Part shown: positions 46,755-64,000 of the stretch, in pieces | Layout of the letters: every line of letters begins with the position of its first letter | Numbering within the stretch: the stretch's first letter is position 1 | DNA from: Clavelina lepadiformis | Lineage: Eukaryota; Chordata; Ascidiacea; Aplousobranchia; Clavelinidae | Assembly (NCBI RefSeq): GCF_947623445.1 | Contig: NC_135242.1 | Span: forward strand, 18,848,001-18,912,000 | Length of the DNA: 64,000 bases | Reading direction: 5' to 3' | The notes under the pieces: model-generated | Databases searched by the model: none | What the model was told of the DNA's origin: nothing | What the model saw: only the letters and a program-made list of their open reading frames with translations | Program-made: the position numbers and the translations under genes

Positions 46755-47589
46755 GAGATTGAGGCAATTGCTTAATTTTTTAGAAATGTAGACTATTTTT
46801 TTTGGTTTTAGATTACGCCTATCATTTTCTGCGAAGAGTGAAACTTTACATAATTATAAAAATCGCTTTCTAGTGTACTAATCAGTGGTTACTGTAAATA
46901 AAAATTTGCAGCATGCTATAAGCCTTCTGCTATTCAGAAAAGCTATATATGGACCCAGATATATCAGTACAAGATTAAAATTACTAAACTTATGTTATTA
47001 AATATGTTATAAAACTTTAATCACTCTCCAAAAAAGGTAAAATATTAGTTTACAGCCATGTTGATTGACTTCCTGCTACTGTAACTTATTGCAAAAGTGT
47101 TGCATTTTACACTGAATCCGTCAGCTTTGGCTCAGAAATATAGCAAGACATAGTTTCCAAAACAAAAAGCAGACCATAGAATATTGCATAAAATAGGCCT
47201 ATTGCTGAGCTACAACAATGACATAAAACTTCTAGGCCTAGTCCTCTACACCTAAAGTTAATTAGGTATTACTGTAGTAAGTTCAGTGCAAAAGCTGATA
47301 GGTTATATCATTATCAGCAATGCATTTAGTAGGTTTTAAGTCCACTGGACAACATTTTTAAATTCCATACTACTCTATTTCGTTTAAGTGCTCATTTTGT
47401 AATTAGAGATAAATTAATTTTGATGGAAATTTGACGCACAACCTGTTCGCTTGTGTCCAAACTACTAATGTAAGGCCAACAAGCAAGATCAAGGTTGACT
47501 TGGCATGATTGGTCATGATCAGTCGAGGTAAATCCCCGGTTACCTTAACAACCACTTCCTTGTCGCTAGAGGCATTAAAGGCAAATTAA

Positions 47590-48494: not shown

Positions 48495-51400
48495 TCATTC
48501 TAACATCATGGTCTGCTGACTAAAAAGACTTATTGATAAAGCACTTAAAAACATTGGGATGGAGTTCTGATGGTGCAGGTGTAAAGATATAAGATCCTCT
48601 AACGACTTTGAAAACTCTGTTTCCAGCATTTGCATCGTCCCGTCTGGCTTCATCTAATATAACAAACAACAACTCTTAATGGGCTTTCATTTCGTTTTAA
48701 TTATCATTTTTATGACTTTATTTGTTGATTCCAGAAGCATATTGCACCTACCTCAAAAAGTAAACAATCTGATTCTGACTCAGCATACATTGACAGCAGC
48801 TTAAACCTAGAATCTGTTGAGGTGTCTATTCTGTACCCAGTAAGAGAATAGCATGCCTGCAAAAATAATAAAAAAACATTCAAGGTCATTGGTCATATTA
48901 TCAGCAAGTCTATTATTCTTGAAACTAAATTATGTAACTTTAAACGAAGTGACTATTTCTTCATATGTAGGTCAAGCAGCGCAGTGAGGTTAGGGGTGGG
49001 TATGCAGAAAGTTGATTAAGCTGTTTAAGGTTTAATTGGAGTTAGATTCGGATTAGAAGGTAGATATAGGTTCTTTATGTTATAACCTTTAAGTTAGGTT
49101 ATCAAGAAACTGAGAAAACAAGCTTCGAATGCATGATTTTTTCCAGTGATATAGTGGCAGCCACTTCTAAATATCATAGCAACGATACCTGTCTGTATTC
49201 TTGTATTTTCTTACTGAATATTTCTTTAAGTCTTTGATTACGCAACTCAGCTCGCGCGATTTGTTCTTTAGCAGTTCGGGAAATTTCAACTTGAAAGCAT
49301 TAACACAAATACGATAATTACTCAGTTCAATTAAAGTAAGTTAACCTAAAAATCTCAATCTTCTACGACATAATTACCTTCAGATATAGAGACTTCATGC
49401 CCTTGCTGTAATTCAGTAATTTTTTTACGCAATTCTGTGTTGTCTGCTTTCAGCTGAGCCACGTCTTGCTTTGATTTTTGATGAGCCAAAGCTGACGGAT
49501 TCATTGCGAAATGCAATACCTTTGAAATTGCAGCAAATCAATCTACATATCTGGATCAAGCATATAAATCACTAATCTGGTACATCCTATCTCAGTGGTA
49601 TGTGAATCATACAATATTGGGGATAAAAACCTTTCACGTTCGTTTTTATACTTATATTTTGAACTACAAACCTTAGTATTTTCAGGATTGTAGTCTCCTT
49701 TAATTCTGCCTTGCTCTATCCATGTCTCAAGATGTTCAATCTTATCATGCATAGTGATACGCTCCTTTTCATATTCCTCGATCTATTTTGAAGAATATGA
49801 TGGACATGAAACATGACACTCAACATATGAACAACAGTTGGCTTTAAAAGTACGTAGTTTGTAAGAGTGTAAGTCAACTACATCCACAAAATCAACCAGA
49901 TGACACCAAGTAGATGACACAGTAATAACATACCTTAACTTTTAATGTTTCTAGTTCAGAGTCATTTGCATTTTCACTTTTCATACATTGAGAAGGTGTT
50001 GGGCAGACACCAGCACTTGGATAAACTTCAGGGCCTCCTAACTGTTTTGCACGTAACTTGTGAAACAGTTTTTGTTCTTCACTTTTCTGAAAAAAAGCAT
50101 TACGAATAGCAAAAAGAATTATGCCATTGTAATTATAAAGAAATGTGCAACAAAAACCAGACATACTTGTAATTCATTTTCCAACTGCTCAATTCTGAAA
50201 TATAGTTTTCTGTTAGCATCCTCAGAATTCTGAAGTCTTCTGCTAAGCTGTGTTGTGTGTGAGGTGGAAGTCAACTCAGCATCATATGACTGAAATGATT
50301 GTCAATAACATGTCTTAAAAAAAATTGACATGTGGCGAAGTAAAAGAAGTTATTAGATGACTTTTCATGTAAGTGCCTTCCAGCGCTTCTTAAATGGTAA
50401 CAAGCTAGTACTGCAAGCTTTATGCAAACACATGATGCTATTGGATTATGGTTTTGTGGTAAAATTGCCTTGCTTGCTTCACCTGTAAGATAGAACGAAT
50501 TGAATCTCTCTCATGAGCAAGTAACCCGGCTTTTTTTCGAAGACGTATTAACTGTGCACTTAAGGAGGATGAACTTTCTTGTTGTTCAGCAAGCTGCATA
50601 GTAACAAAATTTGTTTTATAGATTTATTGTTAAATTTATAAAATTTATTAAATACTTAAATTTATTGTTGGCCTTGGCACAAAAAACAACCTTGGCATCC
50701 AGCACTGTCTTTTCTTGTTTCTCAGTCATATATTTTTTGCTTAATATTACATGCTCAGACTCTAATGTTGCATTTCTTTCCTCCAAGAATTCTATCATGT
50801 GACGCAATTCCAACACCTACATTATGACAATAGGTGATAAGAATTAAACTTATTTAATAACTAATATGCAGTTCACAAGCAAAGGTTAAATACCTGCGAC
50901 GAAAGTTCATTGTATTTGGATGTGACTGACTGGTTGTTATCTAAAGATTTGAGCCTTGCCAAGAGGTTGTTATTTGTTGCTTCCAGGTTGTCCATTTTAG
51001 CACACCGCTCTTCAGCTCTATCTAATTTTGACTCGGCTAACAAGAGTTTTTCATTGAGAAGAAAAGCATTTTCCTGGTTTTCTCTAGAAATAAATTGAAA
51101 TGTTGAATTTATGCGAACAACTGATAAATAGCAAACAGATGAAAGCCAGTACTTTAGTTTGTGGTTCTCCTCAGCTAAGCGCTTGTATTCAATCTCTAAT
51201 TGTCTGAGGCGGCTCAAGTCTTCTTTAAAAATCTGCAGAAAAATAGCAGACTTCGTAACTTTTCTTTTTATAAGACTATGACATTTTGTTATGTTTTGAA
51301 CAAAAATTTTATTTTTACCTTGGCCATTTTTTCAGCATCTTCAGCTTCTGATAGCCTAGATGTAAGTTCCCTTAGTTCCCTTTTCAACTCTTGGATTTGG

Positions 51401-61555: not shown

Positions 61556-62481
61556 GTGATATGCGGTTCCACGACATATGGCCGCGGGAAAGTGGCCGCG
61601 AACAAACTCACCGGGGTCAACTGAACGTGACGTAAATTGACCGCAGACAAACTGACTGTGACATAAACTGGCCGGCGATCAAATTAACCGTCGATAAATT
61701 GGCCGGCGATCAAATTAACCGACGACAAATTGGCCGTCAAAAGGTCAAAATTCTAATTCACTATCTAGTCACTATCCAGTATGTGTATTGCAGTCAAGGT
61801 TGCCACTCGTAGAGTTTTTTGGCCCCTTGTACGGTGACCCATATTCATAGATTTCTTATTGTTACATACATTTTCCCAGTCTAGACGAGTTGTTTGATGA
61901 GATTATGAAACAATGCGTTGTAGCCTATCTCATGTTGTAACAATGGACTTATTGCAATAACCATCGTTGAAGATTTTGCAAACCGTGACATATTAGATTT
62001 TCTCAGAGGCATCGCCCACAACCTACAATTTGCGCAATAAACTTCCTTGTTTGTCAAATAACAGCTTGTGTAAATTTTAGTGCCCATATTATGTAGTGTC
62101 ATATGTGTTTTGCAGTGAACGTCTTTTAATGTTGTTACTCGTATTTCTCGTATTTCCGGAAATATTTCTGTTTATTTCAATAAACGTTTCAATGTGTATT
62201 GAAATAAAAAACAATTTTGTTAAAAACAAAGGAAATAGTTACAAACAAATATTTACTTTACATATCATATACTACCGAGTTTAAAATTTTGACCTTTTGA
62301 CGGCCAATTTGTCGCCGGTTAATTTGATCGCCGGCCAATTTATCGACGGTTAATTTGATCGCCGGCCAGTTTATGTCACAGTCAGTTTGTCTGCGGTCAA
62401 TTTACGTCACGTTCAGTTGACCCCGGTGAGTTTGTTCGCGGCCACTTTCCCGCGGCCATATGTCGTGCTCCCGTGATATGC
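61556..62481. mobile_element. Foldback/MULE-like element with ~190-bp tandem-repeat arms
   Basis: The 908-bp element 61565-62472 is flanked by an exact 9-bp duplication GTGATATGC (61556-61564 and 62473-62481). Arms are about 61565-61757 and 62281-62472, nearly perfect inverted repeats containing CACGACATATGGCCGCGGGA. The inner half of each arm is an array of about 15-16-bp related words such as AAATTGGCCGGCGATC, AAATTAACCGTCGAT, AAATTAACCGACGAC. The 0.5 kb core has no recognisable protein. Nine-bp duplications with tandem-repeat arms fit foldback (FB) or Mutator-like elements. Confidence 0.88.
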
Positions 62482-63205: not shown

Positions 63206-63277
63206 CTAAATTATACTTCTGTTAGTCAGCTAAATTATACTTCTGTTAGTCAGCTAAATTATACTTCTGTTAGTCAG
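63206..63277 (+). repeat. Exact 24-bp tandem repeat, three copies, abutting a start codon
   Basis: CTAAATTATACTTCTGTTAG plus TCAG, repeated three times without mismatch, ending one base before the ATG at 63279. It lies in the presumed 5' UTR or proximal promoter of the OATP-like gene. Confidence 0.95.
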
Positions 63278-63278
63278 C

Positions 63279-64000
63279 ATGTCCTATATTGACAGCTCTC
63301 AACCTTCACAAAGTAGCGGATTTAGACGAAGATCAAGGATAAGAAATGCAAGCGATGTTCTTAGTCCTAGGGGAAAGGCGGATGTATTTCTCATTTTATC
63401 TCCGTCTAAAGATAGCTTACCGTTTACTGAGCTGATCAAACCTAAAACTGCAGAAAGCTTCATCGTTAGATTTGTTGTTTGCCTCGTGTTTATGAATATG
63501 TTTGTAGGTATGCTTCAATACTCGATTAAGGTAAACTTTGAGAACAGTATTTGGAAGATGGATGTGTTTTGTGCTTTATTTGACGTATGTATTGCAGAAA
63601 AAGATATATTTCAAAAATATTAATAGGCCGAAAGATACACTTCAATACTTTTGACTACTTCATATCCAATGCTTAGATATTGAAAGACTGAATTTCTTGA
63701 GCTGAACTATTACCTCATTATCTAGACATACGCAACTACGATCGAGCGCAGATACGGTTTGTCCGGGTCTACAATAGGACTATTTGTTGCTGGAAGCGAC
63801 TTCGGGCATTTGCTTTCGCTTATACCTGCAACTCTAGCTGCATCGCGTTTCTCAAGGTAAAGTAAGCTACAACAAACTAGCCTGTTCGATCCAGTTTAGC
63901 AGCACGTAAACGTGTAATTTGTGTGAAATGTGTTGCATTTTCACAAAACCTATTTTCCCTTCTCGCAAGGCCATGGATAATGGCTATTGCAGGTATAGCA
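63279..64000 (+). CDS. SLCO-like: Organic anion transporter (OATP/SLCO-like), N-terminal part
   Basis: Multi-pass plasma-membrane transporter for organic anions; only the first exons are inside the window. Exons: 63279-63530, 63726-63856, 63970->64000. There is a cytoplasmic Ser/Arg-rich N-terminus of about 55 residues, then TM1 (FIVRFVVCLVFMNMFVGMLQ), then TYATTIERRYGLSGSTIG, which matches the OATP signature after TM1 (ITTIERRF.L.SS..G), then the TM2 region (LFVAGSDFGHLLSLIPATLA), and RPWIMAIAG, comparable to the RPRWLG...G loop before TM3. The ATG at 63279 directly follows the 24-bp repeat array. The gene continues to the right. Confidence 0.8.

Follow-up and report, generated by a model that had tools for sequence, protein, structure and literature searches.

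Phantom-type Mutator-like elements (MULEs) with tandem-repeat arms are the closest described counterparts of the transposon examined here. Phantom constitutes group 20 of the MULE tree, in which Tunicata are included, and its members combine 8–10-bp target duplications and terminal repeats of 18–613 bp with a FLYWCH finger, a SWIM finger or none (PMC6446971). In the mosquito Aedes aegypti, Muta5 carries nine 15-bp units within 151-bp repeats, and Muta1 carries nine 12-bp units, separated by 3–4-bp spacers, within 145-bp repeats (PMC5225508). Arrays of 9–15-bp units are found in 10 of 12 long-armed mosquito MULE families and a FLYWCH finger in 13 of 14 families; Muta1 transposes in yeast, where Muta5 did not (PMC5225508). 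For chordates, a survey published in 2019 gave limited evidence of MULEs: one Ciona savignyi sequence was accepted, earlier reports from lancelet and horse were not confirmed, and nine vertebrate Repbase entries were mentioned (PMC6446971). Because MULEs are so poorly documented in chordates, a family from the tunicate Clavelina lepadiformis matters.

The element lies in a stretch of 64,000 nucleotides of C. lepadiformis DNA (the window). The range first singled out, 61556..62481, consists of a 908-bp element plus its two 9-bp duplications (Table 1). The original prediction, made from the letters alone, described a perfect 9-bp target duplication around two near-exact inverted arms of ~190 bp, within which words of 15–16 bp alternate. 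All three traits are real. The same nine letters, GTGATATGC, stand on both sides. The inverted arms proper (61570–61756 and 62281–62467) are 187 nt long and 99% alike, with two mismatches; the inverted symmetry excludes the outermost 5 bp, where the ends differ (GGTTC on the left, GGGAG on the right). Each arm holds about ten units of 14–16 nt, of which the inner ones alternate between 15 and 16 nt, which yields a 31-bp period. At a lag of 31, the arm body matches itself at 0.63, against 0.43 for the 99.9th percentile of 2000 shuffles of its letters, a reference that takes the maximum over lags 5–49. When the element is folded as a single DNA strand, its stability greatly exceeds that of 20 shuffled versions (z −28.6).

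Table 1. Features of the 908-bp element in the window (window coordinates)
Feature	Position	Strand	Remarks
Element	61565–62472		908 bp; flanked by a perfect 9-bp duplication
Left target-site duplication	61556–61564	.	GTGATATGC; identical to 62473–62481
Right target-site duplication	62473–62481	.	GTGATATGC
Left tip	61565–61569	+	GGTTC; asymmetric, outside the inverted repeat
Right tip	62468–62472	-	GGGAG (read inward)
Left arm	61565–61756	+	Terminal inverted repeat with tip
Right arm	62281–62472	-	Tip included; repeats the left arm in inverted orientation
Unit array	61589–61736	+	Ten units of 14–16 nt, core AAAYTGRCCG; last unit counted as its 10-nt core only
Left inner segment	61757–61958	+	Positions 193–394 of the 2598-bp full-length element
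Internal-deletion junction	61959–61961	+	AAC shared by both sides (3-bp microhomology); 1690 bp of the full-length element absent
Leftover transposase codons	61960–62037	+	Last 26 codons; tblastn 100% over 26 aa
Right inner segment	62038–62280	+	Same as in the full-length element

Some further observations concern the surroundings of the insertion. A Pfam scan of four open reading frames beside it gave no domain match, so we put forward no host gene. At 63206–63278, a 24-bp unit, CTAAATTATACTTCTGTTAGTCAG, occurs in three perfect copies just ahead of an open frame that starts with ATG at 63279. A second inverted repeat (47088–47227 and 49394–49528), with copies ~71% alike over 144 columns and ~2.2 kb apart, is possibly another old transposon.

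We read the window element as a Phantom-type MULE made non-autonomous by a deletion and presumably moved by the FLYWCH–MULE transposase of full-length copies, and assign this reading a probability of roughly 94%; the Phantom assignment was set by domain make-up and structure. The evidence comes from the 209.06-Mb C. lepadiformis assembly (95 contigs, the window being on contig C3). The original prediction had proposed searching the whole genome for the arm sequence, for other copies with 9-bp duplications and for full-length relatives encoding a MULE or P-type transposase. The exact left 28-mer proved to have 125 copies in the genome and the exact right 28-mer 108, whereas the reversed control patterns had no match. 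Among 746 first-look candidates for the window left arm, 40 were scored, and all 40, among them the window copy itself, are identical to it across 192 nt.

At the fetched loci, 102 distinct ends resolved into 48 paired elements and six ends without a partner. These paired loci were drawn from searches favouring the best-matching copies, and the pairing rule allowed only opposite tips no more than 6 kb apart, with the best-matching flank taken where a choice existed. A perfect 9-bp duplication borders 46 of the 48 copies and one more has a single mismatch; at C5:2022459, the remaining copy, the duplication is shifted by one base. When flanks were re-paired at random, the mean number of exact matches was 0.94, a value that includes true partners meeting by chance. 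The lengths of the paired copies fall into a few classes (515 bp, 15 copies; 908 bp, six; 1313 bp, five; 2598 bp, four; 1050 bp, two), with sixteen other lengths seen once each. The second pairing linked each end to the nearest converging one, blind to tip type and flank, and used 100 of the 125 left and 89 of the 108 right ends. Here, a GGTTC end is coupled to a GGGAG end in 82 of 83 pairs, and 23 ends were left over. The exception, an apparent right-right pair, is an error of pairing beside a known 515-bp copy (C3:16663601), which itself joins a left to a right end and has a perfect duplication. In a separate case (L036, C2:3341595–3342109), the opening letters of the target duplication GGTTCCACT resemble the left tip of the element, GGTTCCAC, which may be chance or reflect an insertion close to another tip.

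Full-length relatives were also found. Eight copies of ~2.6 kb have the same tips and arms, and differ from one another by 3–16 substitutions and 0–56 gap columns. The 2598-bp element encodes a protein of 472 aa, whose frame is uninterrupted in four of the eight full-length copies examined (L041, L043, L045 and L046) and broken by stops or frame changes in the others (L039, L040, L044 and L047). Pfam identifies an N-terminal FLYWCH domain (PF04500, E 1.2e-13, residues 4–64) and a MULE domain (PF10551, E 2.1e-10, above cut-off, residues 191–286), both within one open frame. The foldback or MULE-like nature that had been predicted is thus borne out by full-length copies with the same ends. Candidate catalytic residues, picked by eye, are D194, D256 and E388, together with H282 and W370; their order and spacing are close to those of D214, D283, H307, W401 and E419 in Muta1 (PMC5225508). 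The transposase probably has a DDE active site. Comparison with NCBIfam and with solved structures found nothing similar to it at E <= 0.1, and a scan of viral contigs found no relatives.

Taken together, the family has the MULE domain and a 9-bp duplication within the 8–10-bp range of MULEs, the N-terminal FLYWCH finger plus MULE domain of Phantom, and the long inverted arms built of tandem repeats that define the foldback structural class. The original prediction had not recognised a described family. This holds for the sequence itself; it does not hold for the architecture, which is that already described for the foldback-armed, Phantom-type MULEs Muta1, Muta5 and Tm1.

In the window copy, positions 1–397 of the full-length element are joined to positions 2088–2598 at a 3-bp microhomology, and 907 of the resulting 908 positions are identical. 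The window copy is a non-autonomous MULE that derives from the 2598-bp element by one internal deletion. All 40 shorter paired copies likewise match the full-length element to the left and to the right of a gap. Ten deletion junctions were examined: six are clean, with 1–4 bp of microhomology, and four (in the 1227-bp, the 677-bp and both 1050-bp copies) contain extra or changed bases. The 1313-bp class, outside these ten, also differs beside its gap.

One locus captures an insertion event together with its empty site. At L052 (C8:17949334–17950765), a 515-bp copy is nested in a 908-bp copy and flanked by GCAATAACC. Removal of the insert and one GCAATAACC restores the window element with no mismatch in 908 positions, and the window element itself contains GCAATAACC once, at 61954, the matching empty site. 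Direct comparison of the filled site in L052 with the empty site in the window thus shows that the 9 bp were made at insertion. At three other loci (L012, L047 and L055), young copies lie inside older relatives of the same family; such nested insertions perhaps hint at a preference for related sites.

Divergence within the young family is close to zero. Five of the six 908-bp copies are identical, the window copy among them, and lie on four chromosomes; nine of the fifteen 515-bp copies show no difference from the majority sequence of their class. The spread of identical copies over several chromosomes, combined with four open frames, argues that the family moved very recently, and recent activity is what the original prediction had suggested from the similarity of the arms. 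We infer from the same sequence evidence that the family is probably active today. Alternatively, the family moved recently and is now dead, its arms a relic whose ~15-bp units have no binding role. This is unlikely, although an uninterrupted frame in only four of the eight long copies examined would suit it, as would the fact that movement is read from sequence and that the structurally similar Tm1 of root-knot nematodes has been described as inactive (PMC3169594). Against a dead family speak the identical copies on several chromosomes and the four open frames, and the unit core can still be recognised by eye in an older, diverged subfamily, though its arms differ.

For a living family, a simple mechanism can be proposed. 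The zinc finger of the transposase would bind the arrays of ~15-bp arm units, and the transposase would cut at the asymmetric tips. A staggered cut at the insertion site would then produce the 9-bp duplication. The 908-bp copy, with almost the whole gene gone, would be mobilised in trans by the transposase of full-length copies.

Alternatively, the arrays in the arms may have arisen from replication slippage alone and been homogenised by recombination, without transposase selection. Some copies are indeed short of about one or two arm units (16 or 31 bp), with lengths of 484, 892, 1282 and 2567 bp against 515, 908, 1313 and 2598 bp, as slippage could produce. However, the Phantom-type families described from mosquitoes and nematodes also have arrays of 9–15-bp units, which argues for a role, and we judge slippage alone improbable.

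Merlin was the first alternative considered, as its transposons make 8–9-bp duplications and have GG tips. The genome yielded no hit to the Merlin domain PF12762 (DDE_Tnp_IS1595) at E <= 0.001, in a search that detected it in one of 14 control genomes, and the domain is absent from the transposase. The P superfamily, to which Galileo belongs and which the original prediction had left as an option, was also discarded, as FLYWCH and MULE are the sole Pfam domains in the transposase of full-length copies. A foldback element of another superfamily (P-type or Merlin), with a transposase unrelated to MULE, would fit foldback arms and a ~9-bp duplication alone, as P-type Galileo has such arms, but is scarcely credible given that full-length copies with near-identical arms encode FLYWCH and MULE domains, that Pfam shows no P-type or Merlin domain in the protein and that Galileo duplications measure 7 bp (PMC3573991).

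Under the preferred reading of a Phantom-type MULE, the older subfamily offers a view of how the present arms may have formed. Six older copies (two at L047, one at L055, two at L012 and one at L006) all have perfect 9-bp duplications and the tips GGTTC/GGGAT, and their two arms are only ~72–78% alike over the alignable part. A search with one of them returned 577 first-look candidates; among the 40 that were scored, the principal matches are 88–99% alike. With the tips as reference, all six carry their interior in the opposite orientation to that of the young family; the short same-strand matches of 44–49 nt seen in five of them lie within a stretch that is self-complementary. L059 and L061, two longer old copies that retain parts of the transposase, agree with this reversal: their gene runs towards the GGTTC end, whereas that of the young family runs away from it. 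The transposase in both is 87–97% identical over the matched protein pieces. L059 measures 2760 bp from tip to tip. At L060, the main transposase piece also points to a GGTTC tip, within a rearranged stretch. A more diverged member of 526 bp (L006, 2631–3156), with tips GGTTC/GGGAT and the duplication GATACCTTT, is perhaps a third age layer of the family.

The young arm is chimeric in all six comparisons: the old GGTTC arm is the best match for its outer ~105 nt, the old GGGAT arm for its inner ~97 nt. The arms thus appear to have recombined; most simply, a crossover between them would have flipped the interior, after which one arm was copied onto the opposite end, stopping 5 bp short of the tip. 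Divergence suggests that the change ran from old to young, and no intermediate came up among the copies examined. A fuller version, which we advance tentatively and at somewhat below even odds, is that the young family was born when a crossover between the old arms flipped the interior with its gene and the chimeric arm was copied, the last 5 bp being spared because two different tips are needed, so that every transposition would pair a left end with a right end of another kind, although the arms are nearly perfect copies. Chimeric copies of Galileo have also been attributed to recombination, as a proposal (PMC3573991). The pair of old and young subfamilies, a well-preserved record of apparent arm recombination in which tip asymmetry is kept, allows one to test foldback-arm recombination as a source of new transposon families, and the need for tip asymmetry.

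With its open full-length copies, identical derivatives and clean empty site, the Clavelina family stands out as a good candidate both for an active MULE of chordates and for a gene-delivery tool in tunicates. A titles-level look at the papers listed for Clavelina and tunicate MULEs found no report of this family, which may nonetheless have been published.

Several known systems resemble the family to different degrees. By description, not by sequence, it is similar to Drosophila FB elements, which make 9-bp duplications; sea urchin TU elements, with outer arms of ~15-bp repeats and ~8-bp duplications, are also similar by description. FB and Galileo both have long tandem-repeat arms, as in Clavelina, but Galileo differs in its P-type transposase and in the length of its duplications (PMC3573991). 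In a tree-free comparison, the Clavelina element fits the Phantom group by its duplication, repeat length and FLYWCH finger (PMC6446971).

The nematode Mutator/Foldback element Tm1 also resembles it in construction, with an autonomous copy of 2593 bp that encodes a Phantom-like transposase of 496 aa with FLYWCH and MULE domains, as in Clavelina (PMC3169594). Shared traits include arm units of 13–15 bp, asymmetric tips outside the inverted repeat (7 bp in Tm1), 9-bp duplications and MITE-like derivatives (PMC3169594). However, Tm1 arms vary in unit number and are on average 93% alike, compared with 99% for the window arms, and the tip and unit sequences differ (PMC3169594). According to its description, no two Tm1 copies are identical and the family is judged inactive, whereas Clavelina has many identical copies (PMC3169594).

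Muta1 and Muta5 share with the Clavelina family 8–9-bp duplications, subterminal units, a single transposase (504–554 aa in the mosquito elements) and many non-autonomous derivatives in near-identical copies (PMC5225508). They differ in host and sequence. Muta1 ends in a 10-bp palindromic terminal motif, whereas the 5-bp Clavelina tips differ between the two ends; the Muta1 and Muta5 genes are predicted to have two to three exons, whereas the Clavelina domains lie in one open frame (PMC5225508). Finally, most Muta1 derivatives are described as having variable, unrelated interiors (PMC5225508), in contrast to the 40 shorter Clavelina copies, which match the full-length element on either side of a gap.
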